Origin: Simplicispira psychrophila DSM 11588
Lineage (GTDB): Bacteria; Pseudomonadota; Gammaproteobacteria; Burkholderiales; Burkholderiaceae_C
Assembly (NCBI RefSeq): GCF_000688255.1
Contig: NZ_JHYS01000002.1
Coordinates: forward strand, 62,001-126,000
Direction of reading: 5' to 3'
Length of the DNA: 64,000 bases
Position numbers and translations under genes: made by a program. Under the pieces are notes generated by a model. It did not search any database, was not told where the DNA came from, and worked only from the letters and a program-made list of their open reading frames with translations. Positions 28,654 through 41,787 of the stretch are shown one piece after another. Every line of letters starts with the position of its first letter. The first letter of the stretch is position 1.

Positions 28654-30372
28654 TCAAAACAAAAAGTAGCGCTGCGCCATCGGCAGGCTGGTGGCGGGTT
28701 CGCAGGTCAACAGTTGGCCGTCGGCGCGCACCACGTAGGTTTGCGCGTCCACTTCCATGCGCGGCGCGTAGTCGTTGTGCACCATATGCCGCTTGCCCAG
28801 GCCGCGAATGCCTTTGACGGCACTCAGCGTTTTGTGCAGGCCAAAGCGCCCGCCAATCCCCGCCGCCAGCCCAGCCTGCGAGACAAAGGTCAGCGAGGTC
28901 TTAGCGATGGCCCCGCCAAAGGCGCCAAACATGGGCCGATAGTGCACCGGCTGCGGCGTGGGAATGGAGCCGTTGGGGTCGCCCATGGCGGCCATGGCGA
29001 TAAAGCCGCCTTTCAAAATCAGCGACGGCTTGACGCCAAAAAACGCTGGTTTCCAAACCACCAGATCGGCCCATTTGCCGACTTCGATGCTGCCCACCTC
29101 GTGGCCGATGCCGTGCGCAATGGCCGGGTTGATGGTGTATTTGGCGATGTAGCGTTTGATGCGGAAGTTGTCGTTGCGCGCACTGTCGCCGGGCAGTGCG
29201 CCGCGCTGCTGCTTCATCTTGTGCGCCGTCTGCCAAGTGCGGATGATGACCTCGCCGACGCGGCCCATGGCTTGGCTGTCGCTGCTCATCATGCTGATGG
29301 CGCCCAGGTCGTGCAGGATGTCTTCAGCGGCAATGGTTTCCTTGCGGATGCGGCTCTCGGCAAAGGCCAAGTCTTCGGCAATCGCCGGACTGAGGTGGTG
29401 GCACACCATGAGCATGTCCACATGCTCGTCCAGCGTGTTGATGGTGTAGGGGCGCGTCGGGTTGGTGGAGCTGGGCAGCACGTTGGCCTCGCCCACCACT
29501 TTCAAAATGTCGGGCGCATGGCCGCCGCCCGCGCCCTCGGTGTGGAAGGTGTGGATGGTGCGGCCCTTGAACGCCGCCACGGTGTCTTCGACAAAACCCG
29601 ATTCGTTCAGCGTGTCGGTGTGGATGGCCACCTGGGTGTCGGTTGCTTCGGCCACGTTCAGGCAGTTGTCGATGGCGGCGGGGGTGCTGCCCCAGTCTTC
29701 GTGCAGTTTCAGGCCGATGGCACCGGCACTGATCTGCTCGTGCAGCGCCGCAGGCAGGCTGGCGTTGCCCTTGCCCAGCAACCCCAGGTTCATCGGAAAA
29801 GCGTCGGCGGCCTGCAACATGCGCTCCAGATTCCACGGGCCGGGCGTGCAGGTGGTGGCCAGGGTGCCGGTGGCCGGGCCGGTGCCGCCGCCGATCATGG
29901 TGGTCACGCCGCTGGTCAGCGCTTCTTCGATCTGCTGCGGCGCAATGAAGTGGATGTGCGTGTCCACGCCGCCTGCGTTGACGATGTGGCCCTCGCAGCT
30001 GATGATTTCCGTGCCCGGGCCGATGACGATGTCCACGCCCGGCTGGGTGTCGGGGTTGCCGGCTTTGCCGATGGCTGCGATGCGCCCGCCCTGCAGGCCA
30101 ATATCGGCTTTGACGATGCCCCAGTGGTCAAAGATCAGCGCATTGGTCAGCACCGTGTCCATGGCGCCTTGCGCTCTGGAGCGCTGGCTTTGCGCCATGC
30201 CGTCGCGGATGGTTTTGCCGCCGCCAAACTTGACTTCTTCACCGTAGCTGCCGGCTTGCAAAGTGAAGTCTTGTTCGACCTCGGCGATCAGGTCAGTGTC
30301 GGCCAAGCGCACGCGGTCGCCCACGGTGGGGCCGAAAATTTGGGCGTAAGCGCGCCGTTCGATAGTGGCCAT
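28654..30372 (-). CDS. ureC: Urease alpha subunit (catalytic)
   Basis: 572-residue dinickel subunit that hydrolyses urea to ammonia and carbamate. The active site is complete: HIH in [12 protein letters not shown] (about residues 133-144), the carbamylated lysine in [12 protein letters not shown] (about 216-227), the flap Cys-His in [13 protein letters not shown] (about 321-333) and [18 protein letters not shown] near the C-terminal third. Standard length. Two bases separate its start from the ureB stop. Confidence 0.98.
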
Positions 30373-30688: not shown

Positions 30689-31273
30689 TCACGCCATGCG
30701 CACCAGCAGCACCGCGCCCAACAGCGCGGTGGACATGCCCGCCACTGCGGCCCACCAGCGGTGGCGCGCCACCACCGCGTGGCCCAGGACGATGCCCGTG
30801 CCGTGCAACAGCGCCGTGCTGCACACCATGCCCGCCAGCGCCAGCCATTGGCCCGCACCACCCAGCTCGCTGCCGTGCGCCGCGCCATGGAAGAAGGCAA
30901 AGCCGCCGACCAGCATGGTGGTCAGCGCCAAGGGCAGCGGGCGGCGCTGCGCCAGCAACAGGCCCAGCACCAGCAGCGAAGCAGCGATCATCGGCTCCAC
31001 GCCCGGCACCGCCACACCCACAAATCCCGCCACCGCACCCACGGCCAGCAGCGCCACAAAGGCCGCTGGCGCCAGCCACACCGGGCGCACCGCCAACGCG
31101 CTCCACACGCCCACAGCCAGCATGGCCGCCAGATGGTCGAGGCCGGTGAACGGATGCAGCAGGCCCGCCAGCAGGCCGCTGTGGCCGTGGGCGGCGTCGT
31201 CGGTATGGGCGCTGGCGAGTGCGGGCAGCAGGAACAGGGCGGCCAAGGCCATCGAATTTGCTTTATTTTTCAT
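30689..31273 (-). CDS. ureJ: HupE/UreJ family metal transporter
   Basis: 194-residue membrane protein that probably supplies nickel for urease, as inferred for HupE/UreJ genes within ure operons. Signal-like N-terminus ending ALASAH, the diagnostic [18 protein letters not shown] (about residues 40-57), the second His motif [11 protein letters not shown] (about 124-134) and about six membrane helices. It sits between ureA and ureB. Confidence 0.9.
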
Positions 31274-31322
31274 AGCTGTTAGCGTAGGCAGGTAAAGGGC
31301 TAGAGGCCTAAAAGGCTTGAAA
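31272..31322 (+). repeat. Dispersed repeat copy between ureA and ureJ
   Basis: ATAGCTGTTAGCGTAGGCAG then GTAAAGGGCTAGAGGCC and GGCTTGAAA. Very close to the 45499-45550 copy in the AAAGGGCTAGAGGCC core. Confidence 0.75.
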
Positions 31323-31323
31323 T

Positions 31324-31626
31324 TCAGACAATCGGCTGGTGCACGGTGACCAGCTTGGTGCCATCGGGAAAAGTGGCTTCAACCTGGATGTCGGGAATCA
31401 TCTCGGCGATGCCGTCCATCACGTCAGCGCGGGTGAGTACGTTGCGGCCCGCGCTCATCAGCTGGGCCACGGTCTGGCCGTCGCGCGCGCCTTCCATCAC
31501 GGCGGCGCTGATCAGCGCCACGGCTTCGGGGTAATTGAGCTGCAGGCCGCGCGCGCGGCGGCGCTCGGCCAGCAGCGCGGCGGTGAAGAGCAGCAGCTTG
31601 TCTTTTTCGCGGGGCGTGAGTTCCAT
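31324..31626 (-). CDS. ureA: Urease gamma subunit
   Basis: 100 residues, [20 protein letters not shown]...[11 protein letters not shown]...VTVHQPIV, the complete UreA sequence. First structural gene of the ure cluster. The sigma-54-type element at 31661-31676 lies 35 bases upstream on the same strand, predicting NtrC-dependent expression under nitrogen limitation. Confidence 0.98.
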
Positions 31627-31660
31627 GGAGGCTCCGTTGTGCGGGATGTGCAGATCTATC

Positions 31661-31676
31661 AGCAAACTTCGTGCCG
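31661..31676 (-). promoter_or_regulatory. Sigma-54 promoter of the urease operon
   Basis: On the minus strand, CGGCACGAAGTTTGCT. GG and GC are at the required -24/-12 spacing, and 15 of 16 positions fit TGGCACRNNNNTTGCW (only the first T is C). Transcription would start about 20-25 bases before the ureA ATG. It also overlaps a possible GTG start (31671) of the divergent kinase gene, which therefore more likely starts at 31701. Confidence 0.75.
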
Positions 31677-31700
31677 ACACGGGTGCCACCGGGGCATGGC

Positions 31701-34700
31701 ATGAAAACTGCACCGGACAAGTCTGTGCCCCTACCGCTGCCCACCCCCCCACCCCTCCACCCAAGCGCCCCGCCCTCGGGTGCACCGCCGCAACAGGTGG
31801 TGAAGGTGCGCCGCGACTACAACCGCTGGGTGGCGACCGAAACCATGGAGGACTACGCGCTGCGCTACACGCCGCAGCGCTTTCGCCAGTGGTCTGAATG
31901 GCGCGTGGCCAATACCGCCTTTGGCGCGGCCTCGTTCCTGGTGCTGGAGGCGGTGGGCGCCACGCTGCTGGTGCAGTACGGCTTTGTCAACGCCTTCTGG
32001 GCCATCCTGGCCACGGGGCTGATCATCTTTTTGGCGGGACTGCCGATCAGCGTGTACGCCGCCCGCTATGGCGTGGACATGGACTTGCTGACGCGCGGCG
32101 CGGGCTTTGGCTACATCGGCTCGACGGTCACGTCGCTGCTCTACGCCACCTTCACCTTCATCTTCTTTGCGTTGGAGGCTGCGGTGATGGCCTACGCGCT
32201 GGAGCTGGCGCTGGACGTGCCGCCGCGCTGGGGCTACCTGCTGTGCGCGCTGGTGGTGATTCCGCTGGTGGCGCATGGCGTGTCCACCATCAGCCGGCTG
32301 CAGATATGGACGCAACCGCTGTGGCTGGTGATGCTGGTGGTGCCGTTCGTGTTTGTGCTGGTGCGCGATCCTGGTGCGTTTGCCGGTGTCACGCACTACG
32401 GCGGTGAATCGGGTCTGGCCACGGCGTTCAGTCTGCCCCTGTTTGGTGCAGCCCTCACCGTGGGCATTGCGCTGATCACCCAGATGGGCGAGCAGGCCGA
32501 CTACCTGCGCTTTATGCCCGTGCACACGCCGGCCCATCGCTGGCGCTGGTGGCTGGGTGTGCTGGCGGGCGGACCGGGCTGGGTGGTGCTGGGCGTGTGC
32601 AAGATGCTGGGCGGCGTGCTGCTGGGCTACTTGGCCATCAGCCACATGGTGCCGGTGGAGCGTGCGGTGGACCCGAACCAGATGTACCTGGCGGCCTACG
32701 AATACGTGTTTCCGCACTACGGCTGGGCGGTGGCGGCGACGGCGCTGTTTGTGGTGGTATCGCAGCTCAAGATCAACGTCACCAACGCCTATGCCGGTTC
32801 GCTGGCGTGGAGCAACTTCTTCTCGCGCCTCACGCACAGCCATCCGGGGCGCGTGGTGTGGGTGGTGTTCAACACGCTGATCGCCTTCATGCTGATGGAG
32901 ATGAACGTCTTTCAGGCGCTGGGCGAGGTGCTGGGCCTGTACTCCAATCTGGCGATTGCCTGGATCATGGCCGTGGTGGCCGACCTGGTCATCAACAAAC
33001 CGCTGGGCCTGTCGCCCAAGGGCATCGAGTTCAAGCGCGCACACCTGTACGACATCAACCCGGTGGGCGTGGGCGCCATGGCATTGGCCTCGCTGCTGTC
33101 GATCGCGGCGCACCTGGGCCTGCTGGGGGCACTGGCGCAGGCGTTTTCGGCGGTGATCGCCATGGTCACGGCCTTTGTAGCGGCGCCGCTGATCGCCTGG
33201 GCCACCCAGGGCCGCTACTACCTCGCCCGGACATCGGCCTGCGCCGCGCAGCCGGCCAGCGAGCAGCGCTGCGTGGTGTGCGAGCGCAGCTACGAAGCGC
33301 CCGACATGGCGCATTGCCCCGCCTACCGCGGCGCCATCTGCTCGCTGTGCTGCACGCTGGATGCGCGCTGCGGCGACATGTGCAAGCTCCACGCCAGCCT
33401 AGCGGTGCAGTGGTCGGCCGCCTTGCATTGGCTGTTGCCACGGCGTGTATGGCAGTCGCTGGACAAGGGACTGGGGCATTTTTTGCTGCTGATGCTGGTC
33501 ATCGCGCCGTTGCTGGCAGCGGTGCTGGGGCTGCTTTATCACCAAGAGTTGCAGACGCTGGCGCTGGCCCCGGCCGAGGGCACGGCGCAGCAGGCGCCGG
33601 TCACGGCCTTGCAATCGGGCCTGCTCAAGGCCTACCTGGCGCTGCTGCTGATTTCCGGCATCGTGGCCTGGTGGCTGGTGCTGGCGCACCAAAGCCGCCA
33701 GGTGGCGCAGCAAGAATCCAACCGCCAAACGCATTTGCTGCAGCGTGAAATCGCCCTGCACCGCCAGACCGACCAGGCCTTGCAGGAGGCGCGGCGCGTG
33801 GCCGACGTGGCCAACCAGGCCAAGAGCCGCTACATCAGCGCCATCAGCCACGAACTGCGCACGCCGCTCAACAGCATCCTGGGCTATGCCCAGCTGATGG
33901 GCGACGACGCCAGCGTGCCGCCGCACCGCCAGCAGGCGGTGAACGTGATCCGCCGGGGTGGTGAGCACCTGCTGTCGCTGATTGAGGGCACGCTCGACAT
34001 TGCGCGCATCGAGTCCGGCAAGCTCACGCTGGACGTGCGCCCCCTGCGCTTGGCCGACGGCCTGCACGACATGGCCGAGCTGTTCGAGCTGCAGGCCGCA
34101 GCCAAGGGGCTGGCGTTTGTATTCGACGTGCAGGGCGTGGTGCCCGAGGTGGTGCGCGCCGACGAAAAACGCTTGCGCCAGATCCTCATCAACCTGCTGG
34201 GCAACGCCATCAAGTTCACGGCGCAAGGCAGCGTCACGCTGCGGGTGCGCTACGCCCGCGAGATGGCGCGCATCACGGTCGAAGACACCGGGCCGGGCCT
34301 GACGGCGGCCGAAATCGACCAAATATTTGAGCCGTTCGCGCGTGGCGGCAGCGCGCTGGCGGGCGCCAGCACCGCGCCGGCGGCGCCGGGCGCGGGCCTG
34401 GGGCTGACCATTGCGCGGATGCTCACCGTGCTGATGGGCGGCGACCTCACGCTGACCAGCCAGCCGGGTGTGGGCTCGGCCTTTCACGTCAAGCTGTTCC
34501 TGCCCGAGGTCCATGCCGACGCCGGGGGCAACGCCCCGGCCACAGGGCACATGGCACGGCCACGCCGCGCCTACGCCGGCGCACGCCGGCGCATTCTGGT
34601 GGTGGACAACGAAGAGACCGACCGCGAACTGTTGGTGCAACTGCTGGCTCCCCGGGGCTTTGAGTTGCGCCAAGCCTGCAGCGGGCACGATGCGCTGGAC

Positions 34701-35237
34701 CTGCTGGCCACGGGCTACCGGCCCGACGCCCTGCTGCTGGACCTGGCCATGCCGGGCATCGACGGCTGGGAGACCTTGCGGCGCGTACGCCAGATGCCGC
34801 TGCACGGTCTGCGCTGCGCCATCGTCTCGGCCAATGCCTTTGACAAGGGGTTGGAGAACGCACTGGGCATCCGCCCCGAGGATTTCATCGTCAAGCCGAT
34901 CCGCCACAGCGAACTGCTCGACTGGCTGGAGCGCGCGCTGGGGCTGGTGTGGCTCGATACGGCGCCGCCAGCCACCGTGCCGCCTCTCGCCCCGGCTGCC
35001 CTGGCAGCGGCTTTGTCGTTTCCGGGCGGCACGGCGTTGGTGACGCTGCAGCAGAGCGTAGCGCTAGGCTATTACCGGGGCATCCTGAATGCGCTGGACG
35101 AGATCGAGCGCGACCAGCCCGAGCACGCGGCCTTTGTGCAGGCCATGCGCGCGCTGGCAGCACAGTTCCAGTTCGAGGCCATGGAGCAGATTCTTCAACA
35201 GGTACCCCATGCACTCCCCCCTTCCCCTCCCTTGTGA
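31701..35237 (+). CDS. NCS1 permease-like transporter fused to a hybrid histidine kinase
   Basis: 1,178 residues. Residues about 50-515 are a complete 12-helix-type NCS1 (purine/cytosine/allantoin permease) domain ([34 protein letters not shown]). Then a module with eight Cys in 38 residues (524-561), two more membrane helices (about 590-612 and 640-660), a HisKA domain ([17 protein letters not shown], phospho-His about 717), HATPase ([25 protein letters not shown]), a receiver with Asp about 1014 and an all-helical tail. It should sense, and perhaps import, a nitrogenous solute. Divergent from ureA; overlaps its response-regulator gene by 29 bases. ATG 31701 preferred over GTG 31671. The architecture parallels SLC5-kinase fusions such as CbrA/CrbS. 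Ligand unknown. Confidence 0.9.
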
Positions 35238-36240
35238 GCCCGCGTTGGCGCCCTCGATCCTGGACCGCGCGCACAGCGACGTGGTGCTGATCGTCGATGA
35301 CGTGCCCGACAACCTGGCCGTGCTACACGATGCGCTCGAAGAATCGGGCTACACCGTGCTGGTGGCCACGCGCGGCGCGGCAGCGCTGCAACGCGCCGCA
35401 CAGGCACTGCCCGACATCGTGCTGCTGGACGCCTTGATGCCGGGCATGGACGGCTTTGAGGTGGCGCGGCGCCTCAAGGCGATGGCGCAGACGGCACACA
35501 TCCCGATCATCTTCATGACCGGGCTGACCGAAACCGAGCACTTGGTGGCGGCGCTGGAGGCCGGCGGCGTGGACTACGTGACCAAGCCGATCAAGCCCAA
35601 AGAAGTGCTGGCGCGCATGAACGTGCACCTGCAAGGCGCACGCCGCGCCCGCCAAGAAGTGCGCCAGGCCGGGCAGGCACGCAATGCACTGGATGCCTTT
35701 GGCTACGCCAGCATCACGGTGCGCGTCAGCGATGGCCGGCTGATGTGGCAGACGCCGTTGGCGCGCGACCTGCTGCTCGACTACTTTGGCAGCAGCGCGC
35801 CCTATGCGCCCACCGTGGTGCTGGACTGGCTGCGCCAGCACCTGCCCGAGCTGGAGCGGCTGGCGCAGCAGCAGCTGGAGCCGCCGCGCCTGAGCGTGCA
35901 GCAGGGCGCACGCTGCCTGGGTTTTCGGCTGCACCGCCAGACCGGTGACGGCGAGGGCAGCGGCGACTGGCTGATCGTGATGCACGAGGTGTCTGACGCC
36001 GCCGTGATGGCCTCCCTGGGCTTGGGTTTTCGGCTTACAGCACGCGAGGCCGAGGTGCTGTACTGGCTGGTCAAGGGCAAGACCAACCGCGACATCGGCG
36101 AGATTCTGGGCAGCAGCCCGGCCACGGTCAAAAAACACCTGGAGCGGGTCTACGTCAAGCTGGGCGTGGAAACACGTACCGCTGCCGCCGGCATGGCGAT
36201 GGCCCGCATTCGGCAGTCACACCCGCAGTTCGAGGGCTAG
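35209..36240 (+). CDS. LuxR/NarL-type response regulator, partner of the transporter-kinase
   Basis: 343 residues: receiver domain (about 22-142; acidic DDVPDN, phospho-Asp74 in LLDALMPGMDG, Lys in TKPIKPKE), a ~130-residue linker domain of unknown fold containing a PAS-like stretch (ITVRVSDGRLMWQTPLARDLL), and a C-terminal GerE/LuxR helix-turn-helix (LTAREAEVLYWLVKGKTNRDIGEILGS... split as TAREAEVL and TVKKHLERVYVKLG). ATG 35209 lies inside the end of the kinase gene, so the two are coupled. It probably controls genes nearby; a TAGGG-N5-CCCTA palindrome overlaps its stop codon. Confidence 0.92.
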   Translation: MHSPLPLPCEPALAPSILDRAHSDVVLIVDDVPDNLAVLHDALEESGYTVLVATRGAAALQRAAQALPDIVLLDALMPGMDGFEVARRLKAMAQTAHIPIIFMTGLTETEHLVAALEAGGVDYVTKPIKPKEVLARMNVHLQGARRARQEVRQAGQARNALDAFGYASITVRVSDGRLMWQTPLARDLLLDYFGSSAPYAPTVVLDWLRQHLPELERLAQQQLEPPRLSVQQGARCLGFRLHRQTGDGEGSGDWLIVMHEVSDAAVMASLGLGFRLTAREAEVLYWLVKGKTNRDIGEILGSSPATVKKHLERVYVKLGVETRTAAAGMAMARIRQSHPQFEG

Positions 36241-36252
36241 GGCTTATCCCTA
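36238..36252. promoter_or_regulatory. Palindrome TAGGG-N5-CCCTA upstream of a sigma-54 promoter
   Basis: Perfect 5+5 inverted repeat TAGGGCTTATCCCTA, starting at the response-regulator stop codon and ending 23 bases before the -24 element at 36275. Candidate operator for the LuxR-type regulator or another factor. Partial CCCCTACC half-sites also occur near 31726 and 40488. Inference only. Confidence 0.4.
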
Positions 36253-36274
36253 CCGAAGGCCAAGACCGGCAACG

Positions 36275-36290
36275 TGGCACAGTTTTTGCT
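36275..36290 (+). promoter_or_regulatory. Sigma-54 promoter of the ATP-grasp/Anbu operon
   Basis: TGGCACAGTTTTTGCT matches all positions of TGGCACRNNNNTTGCW with exact -24/-12 spacing, 31 bases before the ATG at 36321. Predicts activation by an enhancer-binding protein, most likely NtrC. Confidence 0.85.
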
Positions 36291-36320
36291 TAACACAAAA
36301 CTCTAGCCCACGGAGTTTCC

Positions 36321-37748
36321 ATGCACGCATTGACCTTACCCGCTGCGGATCATTACGACGAGATGTTGCTGCCCAGTGGCGCCATCCGGCCGCATTACCA
36401 ATCCTTTGCCAACTGGCTGCAGGCGCAAACGCCCCAAGCGCTGGCCAAAAAGCGCACCGAAGCCAATTTGTTGTTTCACCGGGTCGGCATCACCTTTGCC
36501 GTGCATGGCGACGAGGCCGGTGCCGAGCGGCTGATTCCGTTTGACACGGTGCCGCGCATCGTGTCCTCGAATGAGTGGAAGATGCTGGAGGCGGGCCTGC
36601 GCCAGCGGGTAACGGCGCTCAACCGTTTCTTGTGGGACATCTACCACGACCACCACATTATCAAAGCTGGGCTGATCCCCGCCGAACAGGTGTTCGCCAA
36701 CGCCCAATACCAGCCGGCCATGCAGGGCCTGGACTTGCCGCACGGCATTTACGCCCATATCACCGGGGTCGATCTGATTCGCCATTCGGATGGCGGCTAC
36801 TACGTGCTGGAAGACAACCTGCGCGTGCCCTCGGGCGTGAGCTACATGCTGGAAAACCGCAAGATGATGATGCGGCTGTTTCCCGAGTTGTTTGCCCACT
36901 ACCCCATTGCGCCGGTGGCGCATTACCCGACCTTGCTGCTGGAGACCCTGCGCCACTCCAGCGAAGCGCAAAACCCCACCGTGGTGGTGCTGACACCGGG
37001 GCCGTGCAATTCGGCCTATTTTGAGCACGCTTTTCTGGCCCAGCAAATGGGCGTCGAACTGGTCGAAGGACAAGACCTGTTTGTCAAAGACGACTACCTG
37101 TATATGCGCACCACCGTCGGTGCCCAACGGGTCGATGTGATCTACCGGCGCATTGAGGACGCCTTTCTTGACCCGCTGGCCTTCAACGCCGACTCCATGC
37201 TGGGGGTGCCCGGTCTGCTGTCGGTCTACAAACAGGGCCACCTGATTTTGGCCAACGCCATTGGCACCGGCGTGGCCGACGACAAGTCGATTTACCCCTA
37301 CGTGCCCGACATGATCCGCTTCTACCTGGGCGAGGAGCCGATCCTGCACAACGTACCGACTTGGCAGTGCCGCAAGCCGGGCGACCTGGCCCATGTGCTG
37401 GAACACATGGCCGAGCTGGTGGTCAAGGAAGTACATGGGGCCGGCGGCTACGGCATGTTGGTCGGGCCGGCCTCCACGGCGGCAGAAGTGGCCGACTTCA
37501 AAGAGCGGGTGCGCGACAACCCCAGCAACTACATCGCCCAGCCCACGCTGTGCCTGTCGAGCTGCCCGACGTTTGTCGAGAGCGGCATTGCGCCGCGCCA
37601 CATCGACCTGCGCCCGTTTGTGCTCAGTGGCCGCGAGGTCTCGATGGTCGCGGGCGGCCTGACGCGCGTGGCCTTGAAACAAAACTCGCTGGTGGTGAAC
37701 TCGTCCCAAGGTGGTGGCACCAAGGACACCTGGATTCTGGAGGCCTGA
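36321..37748 (+). CDS. Circularly permuted type 2 ATP-grasp protein
   Basis: 475-residue protein of the circularly permuted ATP-grasp family, thought to form an amide/peptide-type bond with ATP. Features: YDEMLLPSGAIRPHYQ at the start, RHSDGGYYVLEDNLRVPSG (about residues 153-171, ATP-grasp metal region), ANAIGTGVADDKSIYPYVPD and VVKEVHGAGGYGMLVGPAS toward the end. Normal length. It heads a four-gene operon (ATP-grasp, alpha-E, transglutaminase, Anbu) that recurs in many bacteria. A sigma-54 promoter lies directly upstream. Confidence 0.94.
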   Translation: MHALTLPAADHYDEMLLPSGAIRPHYQSFANWLQAQTPQALAKKRTEANLLFHRVGITFAVHGDEAGAERLIPFDTVPRIVSSNEWKMLEAGLRQRVTALNRFLWDIYHDHHIIKAGLIPAEQVFANAQYQPAMQGLDLPHGIYAHITGVDLIRHSDGGYYVLEDNLRVPSGVSYMLENRKMMMRLFPELFAHYPIAPVAHYPTLLLETLRHSSEAQNPTVVVLTPGPCNSAYFEHAFLAQQMGVELVEGQDLFVKDDYLYMRTTVGAQRVDVIYRRIEDAFLDPLAFNADSMLGVPGLLSVYKQGHLILANAIGTGVADDKSIYPYVPDMIRFYLGEEPILHNVPTWQCRKPGDLAHVLEHMAELVVKEVHGAGGYGMLVGPASTAAEVADFKERVRDNPSNYIAQPTLCLSSCPTFVESGIAPRHIDLRPFVLSGREVSMVAGGLTRVALKQNSLVVNSSQGGGTKDTWILEA

Positions 37749-37749
37749 G

Positions 37750-38718
37750 ATGCTGTCACGTACCGCTGCCCAACTTTTTTGGATGAGCCGCTACCTTGAG
37801 CGTGCGGAAAACCTGGTGCGTATGCTGGATGTGACGCACTCGCTGTCGTTGCTGCCGCAATCGCGCGGCGCCATGACCGAGTTTGCCGCACCGCTGGCCG
37901 TCACCGGCACGCTGGATCCGTACATGGCGCAAAACCGCAAGCTCGAAGGCGACGCGCTGTTTCACTACATGGCGCTGGATTTGGAAAATCCGGCCTCGGT
38001 GCTGTCCTGCCTGAAGTTGGCACGCGAAAACGCCCACGCCGTGCGCGGCAAAATCACCACCGAAATGTGGGAAGCGATCAACGCCAGTTGGCTCGAAGCG
38101 CGCGAGATGCCCAAGCTCGGCATCACCGATGTGTCGGGATTTTTTGACTGGATCAAAGAGCGCTCCCACCTGTTTCGCGGCGCCACCTTCGGCACCTTGC
38201 AACGCAACGATGCCTACTGCTTTATCCGTTTAGGCACTTTCATCGAACGCGCGGACAACACGGCCCGCTTGCTGGATGTCAAGTCCCAACTGATCGAGCC
38301 GGCCGTCGCTGGTTTGGCCCCGGTGAATCTGCCGCAAGAAAGTGCCTCCGAGTTCTATGCCTGGAGCGCCCTGCTGCGCTCGCTGTCGGCCTTTGAGGCC
38401 TACCACGAGGTGTACCGCGATGCGCTGGATGGTCGCCGGGTCACAGAACTACTGGTCTTGCGCCCTGACGTGCCGCGCAGCCTGCGCGCTTGCTGCGACG
38501 AAATACGCGCCATCCTGCCGGAAATCCAGGCCCTGCCAGGCTCTCTGGACGCGGGCCGCGAGGTCAAGATGCTGGCGGGAAAGCTGGCGCTGAAGCTGGA
38601 ATATGGCGTGGTCGATGACATCCTGGACGCCGGCGTGCACCGCTGGTTGACCGAGTTTCTGGCCCAGTCGGCCCATTTGGGCGAAGCCATTGGCAAGGCC
38701 TACCTCGAAGCCAACTGA
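37750..38718 (+). CDS. Alpha-E domain protein
   Basis: 322-residue all-helical alpha-E protein, MLSRTAAQLFWMSRYLERAENLVRML..., typically encoded next to the circularly permuted ATP-grasp enzyme. Its biochemical role is unknown; comparative genomics places it in a peptide-synthesis or peptide-tag system. ATG 37750 comes two bases after the ATP-grasp stop; the start at 37711 would overlap it more and lacks the family N-terminus. Confidence 0.94.
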   Translation: MLSRTAAQLFWMSRYLERAENLVRMLDVTHSLSLLPQSRGAMTEFAAPLAVTGTLDPYMAQNRKLEGDALFHYMALDLENPASVLSCLKLARENAHAVRGKITTEMWEAINASWLEAREMPKLGITDVSGFFDWIKERSHLFRGATFGTLQRNDAYCFIRLGTFIERADNTARLLDVKSQLIEPAVAGLAPVNLPQESASEFYAWSALLRSLSAFEAYHEVYRDALDGRRVTELLVLRPDVPRSLRACCDEIRAILPEIQALPGSLDAGREVKMLAGKLALKLEYGVVDDILDAGVHRWLTEFLAQSAHLGEAIGKAYLEAN

Positions 38719-38748
38719 GTCTGTTTTAGTTACCCACAAGGAAACGAT

Positions 38749-39555
38749 ATGCACCTGCTCATCGCCCACGAAACCGTTTACCGCTACGACCGACTGCTCC
38801 AGCGCAGCACGCAGTACCTGCGCCTCACACCGCGCCCCGGCCACGGCTTGAAGGTGCTGTCCTGGCAGCTCACCCTGCCGGCACCAGCATCGCGCTGCCT
38901 CGACGCCTACGGCAACATCATGCATGTGCTGACGCTGGACCAGCCCACCAGTGAAATCCACCTGATGGCCCGGGGCGAGGTCGAGACCGACGACAGCCGG
39001 CCCACGCCCGACCCCGAAGACGCATTGCCCGCACAGCTGTTCCTGCGCGATTCCCCGCTGACGCGCGCCGACGCTGCGCTGCGCCAGTTTGCCCACGGGC
39101 ACGCGGCGCAGGTGGCCTCCGACCCGCTGGCGGGGTTGTTGCAAATGATGCAGGCGCTGGTGGTGGTCATGCCCTACACGCCCGGCACCACCGACGCGGC
39201 CACCCCGGCGGCCGAAGCCTTTGCCAACAGAAACGGCGTTTGCCAGGACCACGCACAGGTTTTTGCCACCTGTGCGCGGCTGCTGCGCCTGCCCGCGCGT
39301 TACGTCAGCGGCTATCTGGCAGCCGATACCGAGCATGTGGCCAGCCACGCCTGGGCCGAAGTGCGCCTGCCCCAAGGCTGGCTGGGCTTTGACGTGTCCA
39401 ACCAATGTCTGGCCGACGGACGCTACGTGCGCTTGGCTATCGGCGCCGACTATGCCGACGCCTGTCCGGTACGCGGTATGCGTCTGGGCGGGGGGGTAGA
39501 GCACCTGCAAACGGCCGTGCAGGTCAGCCACGGCGCCAAAGAGTCTGAACAGTGA
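38749..39555 (+). CDS. Transglutaminase-like cysteine protease of the Anbu operon
   Basis: 268 residues: N-terminal beta domain (MHLLIAHETVYRYDRLLQRSTQYLRLTP split as HETVYRYD and QYLRLTPR) and a transglutaminase core with catalytic Cys in NGVCQDHAQVF (about residue 165), His in ASHAWAEV (about 202) and Asp in GFDVSNQ (about 217). Probably a peptidase or amidase acting on the product of the ATP-grasp enzyme. AAGGAA ribosome site before the ATG. Confidence 0.94.
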   Translation: MHLLIAHETVYRYDRLLQRSTQYLRLTPRPGHGLKVLSWQLTLPAPASRCLDAYGNIMHVLTLDQPTSEIHLMARGEVETDDSRPTPDPEDALPAQLFLRDSPLTRADAALRQFAHGHAAQVASDPLAGLLQMMQALVVVMPYTPGTTDAATPAAEAFANRNGVCQDHAQVFATCARLLRLPARYVSGYLAADTEHVASHAWAEVRLPQGWLGFDVSNQCLADGRYVRLAIGADYADACPVRGMRLGGGVEHLQTAVQVSHGAKESEQ

Positions 39556-39613
39556 GCCGGGCAAGGGATAATCCCGCCGATTCAACGCGCCCGCTCCTTT
39601 TTTCTCTCACACC

Positions 39614-40357
39614 ATGACCTACTGTGTTGCCATGCGGCTGGATGCCGGCTTGCTGTTTGCCTCGGACTCGCGCACCAATGCCGGGGTCGATCACATCGCC
39701 ACCTTCCGCAAGATGAGTGTGTTTGAAGTGCCCGGTGAACGCCTGATTACGCTGCTGAGCGCCGGTAATCTGGCGACCACCCAAAGCGTGGTCAGTTTGC
39801 TGCGCCAGCGGCTGGCACACCCTGGGGGGACTGAAAGGGAGCACTTGCTCAATCGCCCTTCCATGTACGACGTGGCCGAGCTGGTAGGGCGCACCATCAA
39901 GGAAACGGTGGCCCGCGATGCCAATGCCCAAAGCCTGGGGCAAGGGGTGGATTTTGGCGGCAATTTTCTGGTGGGCGGGCAGATTCGCGGCGAAGAACCC
40001 CGGCTGTTTCACGTCTATGCCCAGGGCAATTTCATTGAAGCCGGGCAAGACACGCCGTATTTCCAGATTGGTGAGTCCAAATACGGCAAGCCCATCATCG
40101 ACCGCGTGGTGCGCTACCAGACCTCGCTGAAAGAAGCCGCCAAGTGCACGCTGATTTCGTTTGACTCGACGATTCGCAGCAACCTGTCGGTGGGTTTGCC
40201 GATCGACATGCTGCTCTACCGCACCGACTCCTTTGCCAAGGTCGAGCCCCACCGCATTGGCGCCGATGACCCTTATTTCAACAAGCTCAGTCGGGGATGG
40301 GGCGATGGGCTGCGGCGCGCCTTTGCCAAGCTGCCCGACGAAGACTGGTTTCGCTAA
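39614..40357 (+). CDS. Proteasome-type protease Anbu (bacterial proteasome beta-subunit-like)
   Basis: 247 residues of the Ntn-hydrolase proteasome/HslV superfamily, Anbu branch. After removal of Met1 the N-terminal Thr (MTYCVAMRLDAGLLFASDSR) would be the nucleophile; Asp and Lys of the site are in DSRTNAG and FRKM (about residues 19 and 33). Anbu subunits form open helical or ring assemblies; the physiological substrate is unknown. Last gene of the sigma-54-linked operon and immediately upstream of urtA. Confidence 0.94.
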   Translation: MTYCVAMRLDAGLLFASDSRTNAGVDHIATFRKMSVFEVPGERLITLLSAGNLATTQSVVSLLRQRLAHPGGTEREHLLNRPSMYDVAELVGRTIKETVARDANAQSLGQGVDFGGNFLVGGQIRGEEPRLFHVYAQGNFIEAGQDTPYFQIGESKYGKPIIDRVVRYQTSLKEAAKCTLISFDSTIRSNLSVGLPIDMLLYRTDSFAKVEPHRIGADDPYFNKLSRGWGDGLRRAFAKLPDEDWFR

Positions 40358-40515
40358 CCGACGTGGTGCCGGGCCGCGCCAGCGCGGTGTACGCCACCTA
40401 GCGTATTGGCCGGACACCAGGGTGTCTCCAGAATCGGTGCATCGCTGATAAGACTGCCGCCAGCACAGCGCGGCAGACACAGCGACCCCTACCCTTTCAC
40501 TTCCTGGAGCCGCTC

Positions 40516-41787
40516 ATGCACCGTCGATCCACCCTCAAGGCACTGACTGCCGCCCTGGCCCTGGCGGGCCTGGCCTCCTTCTCCGCCCACGCCGCCGACA
40601 CCATCAAGGTGGGCGTGCTGCACAGCCTGTCGGGCACCATGGCCATTTCGGAAACCGTGCTCAAAGACACGGTGCTGATGGCGATTGACGAAATCAATGC
40701 CAAGGGCGGTGTGCTCGGCAAAAAGCTCGAACCCGTGGTGGTAGACCCCGCCTCCAACTGGCCGCTGTTCGCTGAAAAAACCAAGCAACTGCTGGGACAG
40801 GACAAGGTCGCGGTGATCTTTGGCTGCTGGACGTCGGTCAGCCGCAAATCCGTGCTGCCGGTGGTGGAAGAAATGAACGGCCTGCTGTTCTACCCGGTGC
40901 AATACGAAGGCGAAGAGCTGTCGAAAAACGTCTTCTACACCGGCGCCGCGCCCAACCAGCAAGCCATCCCGGCGGTGGATTACCTGATGGGCAAGGACGG
41001 CGGCGGTGCCAAGCGCTGGGTGCTGCTGGGCACCGACTACGTCTACCCGCGCACCACCAACAAAATCCTGCGCGCCTACCTGAAAAACAAAGGCGTGAAG
41101 GACAGCGACATCGACGAGAAGTACACGCCGTTTGGCCACTCGGACTACCAGACCATCGTCGCTGACATCAAGAAGTTCAGCCAGGGCGGCAAGACAGCGG
41201 TGGTGTCCACTATCAACGGCGACTCCAATGTGCCGTTCTACAAAGAGCTGGGCAATGCCGGCCTGAAGGCCAAAGACGTGCCGGTGGTGGCCTTCAGCGT
41301 GGGCGAAGAAGAGCTGCGCGGTGTGGACACCAAGCCGCTGGTCGGCCACCTGGCGGCATGGAACTACTTCATGTCGATCAAGAACCCGACCAACACCGCC
41401 TTCATCCAGCAGTGGAGCGATTACGCCAAGGCCAAGAACCTTGCCGGCCACAAGGACAAGCCGCTCACCAACGACCCGATGGAAGCCACCTACATCGGCA
41501 TCCACATGTGGAAGCAGGCAGTAGAAAAAGCCCAGAGCACCGACGTGGACAAAGTGATTGCCGCCATGGCCGGCCAGACCTTCACCGCGCCCAGCGGCAT
41601 CGTCAGCAAGATGGACGAGAAGAACCACCATCTACACAAGAGCGTGTTCATTGGCGAGATCAAGGCCGACGGCCAGTTCAATGTGGTCTGGAAGACGCCC
41701 GGCCCGGTCAAGGCCAAGCCTTGGAGCCCGTACATCCAGGGCAACGACAAGAAGAAGGACGAGCCGCAAGGCAAATCCGCGCTGTGA
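40516..41787 (+). CDS. urtA: Urea ABC transporter substrate-binding protein
   Basis: 423-residue periplasmic binding protein of the branched-chain/amide family. Signal peptide MHRRSTLKALTAALALAGLA...HAA, then DTIKVGVLHSLSGTMAISE, AVIFGCWTSVSRKSVLPV, LLFYPVQYEGEE and TDYVYPRTTNKILRAYL, which are characteristic of UrtA and of FmdD-like amide binders. With urtBCDE directly downstream and urease in the same island, urea is the likely ligand. No sigma-54 element was seen in the 158-base gap upstream. Confidence 0.95.
   Translation: MHRRSTLKALTAALALAGLASFSAHAADTIKVGVLHSLSGTMAISETVLKDTVLMAIDEINAKGGVLGKKLEPVVVDPASNWPLFAEKTKQLLGQDKVAVIFGCWTSVSRKSVLPVVEEMNGLLFYPVQYEGEELSKNVFYTGAAPNQQAIPAVDYLMGKDGGGAKRWVLLGTDYVYPRTTNKILRAYLKNKGVKDSDIDEKYTPFGHSDYQTIVADIKKFSQGGKTAVVSTINGDSNVPFYKELGNAGLKAKDVPVVAFSVGEEELRGVDTKPLVGHLAAWNYFMSIKNPTNTAFIQQWSDYAKAKNLAGHKDKPLTNDPMEATYIGIHMWKQAVEKAQSTDVDKVIAAMAGQTFTAPSGIVSKMDEKNHHLHKSVFIGEIKADGQFNVVWKTPGPVKAKPWSPYIQGNDKKKDEPQGKSAL

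Follow-up and report, generated by a model that had tools for sequence, protein, structure and literature searches.

The window analysed here, a stretch of 64,000 nucleotides of Simplicispira psychrophila DSM 11588 (contig NZ_JHYS01000002.1, positions 62,001 to 126,000), encodes on its forward strand a hybrid sensor kinase with an NCS1-type sensor (31725..35237), followed by its partner response regulator (35209..36240). We consider it likely that this kinase is a transceptor for urea and, in relatives, for amides, which is armed by nitrogen limitation and which, through the regulator and a palindromic operator, induces an ATP-binding cassette (ABC) transporter. The reading rests on sequence-level evidence, and sensing, transport and regulation are predicted. 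The sensor is conserved, genuine and apparently undescribed: neither an NCS1-kinase fusion nor such a urea or amide sensor was found in the open-licence literature, among the matches listed, in agreement with a first-pass annotation of this DNA that knew of no experimental description.

The kinase is a single open frame that ends at 35237, as seen in the open reading frame list and the Pfam search. Its start is uncertain: GTG 31671 gives the longest frame (1,188 residues), ATG 31701 the 1,178-residue frame named in the first-pass annotation, and GTG 31725 a frame of 1,170 residues. The first two codons are doubtful, the ATG included, because 31697-31712 is occupied by a conserved element of sigma54 type, and GTG 31725 or a later codon appears the likelier start. 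The frame holds, all on the forward strand, the NCS1-type permease domain (31839..33212, alignment residues 17-474; delimited with AlphaFold2, Foldseek, hhalign and kinase-free relatives), a Cys-rich module (33270..33383), two further helices that join the permease to the kinase (33441..33737; residues 551-592 and 601-649 of the AlphaFold2 model), the phospho-acceptor domain HisKA (33819..34019), HATPase_c (34161..34502) and a C-terminal receiver (34593..34925). The last three gave strong Pfam matches (residues 717-783, 831-944 and 975-1085, numbered from GTG 31671), and their His and Asp motifs, read by eye, are intact. According to Pfam, the regulator consists of a receiver (REC), a middle region of about 130 residues and a LuxR/NarL-type helix-turn-helix domain; its first base is 35209, so that 29 bases (35209-35237) are shared with the kinase frame. 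Thus the architecture described in the first-pass annotation, namely HisKA, HATPase and receiver, Cys-rich module, two extra helices and an overlapping LuxR-type regulator, was confirmed throughout. In three public records the kinase is called 'ATP-binding protein' (twice) or 'hybrid sensor histidine kinase/response regulator' (once). The permease-kinase fusion is genuine, and chance is excluded as its origin, because at least 577 stretches from GTDB genomes carry a gene for a relative.

The NCS1 reading of the sensor does not come from direct searches: the N-terminal 690 or so residues have no match in Pfam, NCBIfam or the sequences of the PDB. An AlphaFold2 model of the window's sensor domain, made from an alignment with 35 relatives, reached a predicted local distance difference test score of 79.5 and a predicted template modelling (TM) score of 0.80. 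When it was searched with Foldseek, the top five PDB matches were all Mhp1 or CodB (E 1.9e-8 to 2.9e-7, target TM 0.63-0.75), and the best SSF-type match (E 7.3e-5) ranked below NCS1. Homologues lacking the kinase part provide a link to the NCS1 family in sequence as well. The Pfam model PF02133 is matched above its cut-off by three of the seven distinct kinase-free relatives (L215, L326 and L327, the first two being 99% identical), with L215, 44% identical to the kinase domain, scoring 31.8 bits against a cut-off of 23.5; it is not matched by the other four (L328, L329, L330 and L201). A bridging NCS1 protein, L028, was retrieved with the kinase domain (27% identity, E 1.8e-6) and itself matches PF02133 at 35.3 bits (same cut-off), whereas L029 does not match it. 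No SSF model of Pfam is matched by the kinase-free relatives or by the 36 kinase sensor domains (window and 35 relatives), and an SLC5/SSF identity was dismissed because of the fold ranking and the Pfam result. Between permease and HisKA there is no Pfam match, no dedicated STAC model having been compared.

Profile comparison was less clear. A profile of 22 aligned homologues was compared by hhalign with nine SSF proteins and with ten NCS1 proteins, the latter being eight PF02133 matches together with L028 and L029, both weak matches of the first kinase-domain search. The score was 99.1 over 408 columns with the ten NCS1 proteins and 5.6 with the SSF proteins, while an NCS1 versus SSF control gave 17.8, or 0.6 once L028 and L029 were removed. 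Two results speak against the assignment: without these two bridging proteins the sensor scores only 1.0 over 310 columns with the remaining eight, and PF02133 is matched by none of the 36 kinase sensor domains. By itself, the profile comparison does not decide the question. We call the sensor a divergent NCS1-type domain, whose kinship is real but distant, because of its fold, the kinase-free relatives that match PF02133 and the bridging NCS1 protein. The preference of the first-pass annotation for NCS1 over SLC5 is supported by the fold and by the relatives.

The family is large in Pseudomonadota. A kinase-domain match was found in 28 of 100 related genomes (26 if G054 and G086, which are merely weak, are set aside), in 18 of 369 genomes sampled from the class, and in 60 of 398 sampled from the phylum, eight of the 60 being weak or fragmentary; from the GTDB stretches the best 80 of at least 577 were taken, a sample biased to close kin. 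With uniform thresholds, 142 of 166 family loci contain urease, urtA, formamidase or an amide-type binding protein: 29/30 among the relatives and the window, 65/80 among the named best hits, 9/17 in the class sample (one being a kinase-free protein) and 39/39 in the phylum sample, which comprises 39 of 57 strong places, five more having been counted in other sets. Three loci are present twice among the 166, L216 and L286 lay under the threshold and were left out of this count, and L206 was counted as unmarked, its other copy facing an amide binding protein. In 145 of the 166 loci a sequence matching the regulator over 200 residues or more was present no further than 5 kb away.

The expected link to nitrogen genes thus holds, and it takes two forms. 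In the first, urease genes are divergent from the kinase and urtABCDE often lies downstream. The window is of this form, as had been noted in the first pass: ureA (31324..31626, reverse strand), the first of the divergent urease genes, lies upstream of the kinase together with HupE/UreJ and ureB, and ureC, found as an open frame and by tblastn, occupies 28654..30372 on the same strand. In the second, an amide-type ABC transporter and formamidase, often with amidase, are divergent from the kinase. In a tree of 165 rows built with FastTree, the urea/amide label changes four times over 138 rows, and the urea label 16 times once unlinked and other rows are included, with near-copies in the tree favouring such clustering. 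The urease link is the form of one clade, and the sister clade is linked to formamidase/amidase. Ten proteins from seven unlinked loci, among them a PilS/PilR-like pair, QueC, DUF2126 and gamma-glutamyltranspeptidase, showed no shared theme.

Eleven kinase-free relatives were examined, one of them (L360) broken. Seven come after ureABCEFG, and the other four stand before formamidase and amidase, with a kinase facing them; markers of ABC transporters were seen in none of the eleven loci at the thresholds used, as if the kinase-free permease stood in for the ABC pump. A 'hypothetical protein' of Methylovirgula pHY1 (L366:10673-12322), which comes after a kinase-regulator pair near formamidase and amidase and falls in a two-piece tblastn match, is probably a further relative of this kind. 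The permease-Cys unit also occurs with other outputs, namely PAS-GGDEF-EAL in L213 (7352-11020), PAS-PAS-kinase-receiver in L214 (9023-12838) and a kinase without receiver in L203; the sensor is a module.

In the Cys-rich module, eight cysteines do not vary among the 22 aligned homologues and are conserved at 1.00, after rounding, in the kinase-labelled rows, and the module is probably metal-binding. Such conservation would also suit a sensor in which this module responds to a metal, e.g. nickel for urease, or to redox, the permease serving as an anchor or being monitored for flux without any reading of a ligand. We regard this as unlikely. The amide clade and four kinase-free relatives of amide type keep the module equally well, which suggests a structural role, and it is degenerate in the kinase-free relatives of urease operons. 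In addition, polar positions of the permease are conserved as strongly as the cysteines: in the kinase alignment E53 (rounded, kinase-labelled rows), Q231, E234, D237, K327, N329 and N332 reach 1.00, and E129 reaches 0.99. In helix 1 (window 31944-31949, alignment residues 52-53), the kinases have LE where the kinase-free relatives seen have AD(Q/F), a possible switch between sensor and transporter.

Intergenic sequences were compared in two sets, 63 gaps between ureA and the kinase and 50 gaps between the kinase and a binding protein (44 amide-type, 6 urea-type). In the latter, TACG-N8-CGTA was present in 37 of 50, versus 0.00 in six shuffles, and motif fitting gave TACGTCA-NN-TGACGTA; the ureA-kinase gaps contained no clear regulator-like palindrome. 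Within 450 bases upstream, the palindrome precedes 35/44 urea-type urtA genes and 37/48 amide binding protein genes, compared with 0/77 for ureA and 1/70 for ureC. The only TACG-N8-CGTA of the window, the candidate operator TACGCCACCTAGCGTA at 40390..40405, lies about 110 bases upstream of the ATG of urtA (40516..41787, forward strand), which encodes the binding protein of the urea ABC transporter and would be the first gene of the target operon. It is the sole perfect match to TACGYYANNTRRCGTA in its own 3.6-Mb genome. A copy with one mismatch on contig 3 was rejected as probably due to chance: it is inside a GGDEF/EAL-like frame, and a reversed control pattern occurs 10 times per strand. An extra palindrome 81-122 bases before formamidase in 8 of 12 amide-context loci (L247, L248, L249, L250, L259, L265, L273, L205) hints at a second target promoter. 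The locus L050 has one palindrome before an amide binding protein and another before a true urtA, and several TACG-N8-CGTA copies of urea loci (L072, L081, L086, L094 and L131) are at positions other than the one before urtA.

The palindrome and the kinase occur together. At E 1e-100, urtA was present in 38 of the 100 related genomes, and loci for 30 were compared: the palindrome precedes urtA in 16/16 genomes with a urea-type kinase and in 1/14 without any kinase match (Fisher p 1.2e-7, a value that is too small, as the genomes are related). A related pattern, scanned in 15 further genomes, gave four matches, three of them directly before urtA (one in Denitromonas and two in Zoogloea, with the kinase unlinked), each being the single match of its genome; the pattern omits the commonest urea-type site, so that its 11 negatives out of 15 are uninformative. 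The fourth, the only match of its genome, precedes a porin-like gene of ExtI type that stays below the cut-off of that model (L370:1501-2873). According to PMC5877670, FmdC of Methylophilus is the characterised porin nearest to ExtI, at 19% identity; the connection is suggestive only.

Alternatively, the palindrome could serve a different regulator that accompanies the system, while the kinase-regulator pair has other targets. The role of the palindrome as a regulator site is predicted from sequence, one kinase-negative genome has the site, and the fourth site of the unlinked genomes stands before the porin-like gene rather than urtA. Yet site and kinase co-occur even in G026 and G037, where urtA and the kinase are on different contigs; the site of the amide clade sits in the gap adjoining the kinase; and the 7-2-7 layout resembles that of NarL heptamers, as would fit a LuxR/NarL-type regulator. 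We therefore find it improbable that a different protein uses these sites.

In the preferred reading, the permease-fold domain would bind urea or, for the sister clade, short-chain amides, and such a ligand, not a nucleobase, is likely because of the neighbouring genes and the operons of the kinase-free relatives. The latter are the best evidence on the ligand class, which is still circumstantial. A heterocyclic ligand (allantoin, hydantoin, uracil or cytosine), with the urea genes downstream in purine or pyrimidine breakdown, is very unlikely: although the solved NCS1 proteins that were matched are heterocycle carriers and allantoin breakdown yields urea, the genes linked to the sister clade are those of formamidase and aliphatic amidase, outside any purine route, the kinase-free relatives belong to urease and formamidase operons, and a ring-stacking aromatic of CodB (Phe204) corresponds to Leu228 here in a hand alignment that is unsure. 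Of the nitrogenous solutes put forward in the first pass, urea is thus favoured by context, together with short-chain amides; cytosine, uracil, hydantoin and allantoin are not.

The kinase and urease promoters appear to be of another type. Motif fitting in the ureA-kinase gaps gave TGGCACGAAA-CTGCA, a sigma54 -24/-12 element, of which the window has two: TGGCATGAAAACTGCA (31697..31712, forward strand), directed towards the kinase, and CGGCACGAAGTTTGCT (31661..31676, reverse strand), directed towards ureA. At 9/12 the element was found in 60/63 ureA-kinase gaps (shuffles 6.75) and 31/50 kinase-binding-protein gaps (shuffles 7.25). At 10/12, 43/63 ureA-kinase gaps had it towards the kinase, 47/63 towards ureA and 36/63 both ways (shuffles 0.45 per strand), and the other set 19/50 towards the kinase and 2/50 towards the binding protein. 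Within 250 bp, sigma54-like sites precede 50/77 ureA and 76/161 kinase genes, versus 1/45 urtA, 1/48 amide binding protein and 1/69 ureC genes. NtrC-like boxes occur in 6 of the 50 kinase-binding-protein gaps, versus 0.6 in shuffles, unlike in the urea gaps.

LuxR/NarL-type regulators are not known to activate sigma54-type promoters. Because ureA has a sigma54-type promoter and no palindrome was found before any of the 77 ureA genes, the urease genes are not regarded as a target of the regulator. Its probable targets are the genes of the ABC transporter, either urt or the corresponding amide genes. Of the three candidates (ure, Anbu, urt) listed in the first-pass annotation, urt alone remains, Anbu being a local neighbour.

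From these results, the following mechanism may be proposed. Nitrogen limitation would arm the system through the sigma54-type promoters, which stand before the sensor operon and, for the urea clade, before the urease operon too. The permease-fold domain would then bind its ligand, with or without transporting it, and the signal would pass through the Cys-rich module and the two extra helices to HisKA/HATPase, the built-in receiver and finally the partner REC-LuxR regulator. Once phosphorylated, the latter would bind the 7-2-7 palindrome of the TACGYCA-NN-TGRCGTA type and induce the cognate transporter: urtABCDE here, and the amide transporter with formamidase elsewhere. With a slight preference only, we further propose that an unrecognised NCS1 branch consists of urea/short-chain-amide permeases with a Cys-rich tail, marked by Ala-Asp-(Gln/Phe) in helix 1, and that one lineage, marked by Leu-Glu, evolved into a sensor in the membrane that feeds more than one output (two-component signalling and cyclic di-GMP turnover), which would give bacteria a dedicated urea/amide transceptor to gate the urea/amide ABC transporter.

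Several observations count against the reading as a whole, besides the two given for the sensor domain and the relatedness of the genomes compared. No marker gene was found in the stretch examined for 24 of the 166 loci; some of these are cut by contig ends, several (in Zoogloea, Denitromonas and Azonexus) are not. Three relatives (L213, L214 and L203) have other outputs. The exact site is missing before 9/44 urtA and 11/48 amide binding protein genes. In G052 (locus L300) the palindrome precedes urtA without a kinase, and no orthologue of the regulator was found in that genome, the best match (45%) covering the receiver part; loss, an assembly gap or another regulator would explain this. Finally, an NtrC-like box was seen in 0/63 urea-clade gaps, the gaps alone being covered.

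The nearest known systems are CbrA/CbrB and CrbS/CrbR, in which a transporter of the LeuT fold is likewise fused to a histidine kinase. CrbR belongs to the LuxR family and requires an imperfect inverted repeat (PMC5715377), and CbrA has been termed a rare transceptor with an unclear trigger (PMC13022988). These systems differ in their SLC5 fold, in a STAC linker in place of the Cys-rich module and two helices, in their ligands (histidine or acetate) and in their regulons. RpuS/RpuR of Sinorhizobium fredii also combines a transporter-fused kinase with a regulator that controls a transporter gene; it is of the SLC5/STAC type, and its target is the pyruvate symporter MctP (PMC9100948). The sensor described here would work like the SLC5-fused kinases but with another transporter family, linker and regulon. 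Mhp1 and CodB share the fold of its N-terminal domain; however, they are plain transporters of hydantoins and cytosine, with sequence kinship to the sensor solely through the bridging proteins.

On the target side, UrtABCDE and its amide counterpart are the transporters proposed here. The fmdCABDEF genes of Methylophilus methylotrophus, for amide/urea uptake and formamidase, are induced by formamide and urea and repressed by ammonia, and only a putative positive regulator is named in the retrieved part of PMC10781810. Such behaviour is that expected from the proposed sensor. For the induction of amide and urea uptake in methylotrophs only a putative regulator had been named; many genomes now offer candidates for the sensor, regulator, operator and target, and the urea and amide versions are natural contrasts that make the question directly testable. 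Moreover, a second transporter family becomes available for asking whether binding or transport triggers the kinase of a transceptor, with kinase-free relatives for comparison. A cluster of Bradyrhizobium japonicum beside formamidase/amidase was interpreted in 2010 as amide transport (PMC3098086), and neither 'histidine kinase' nor 'sensor' occurs in the main text of that paper.

As to the remaining neighbours, the Rfam search gave no match in 31200-41000. An Anbu-type cluster (CP_ATPgrasp, Alpha-E, transglutaminase and a proteasome-like protein) occupies 36321-40354 of the window, between the regulator and urtA. It was rejected as a partner because three Anbu genes stood together at 3 of 110 loci, of which two are one sequence. 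Gene cluster 13, antisense at the position of the regulator, was taken as a shadow frame.

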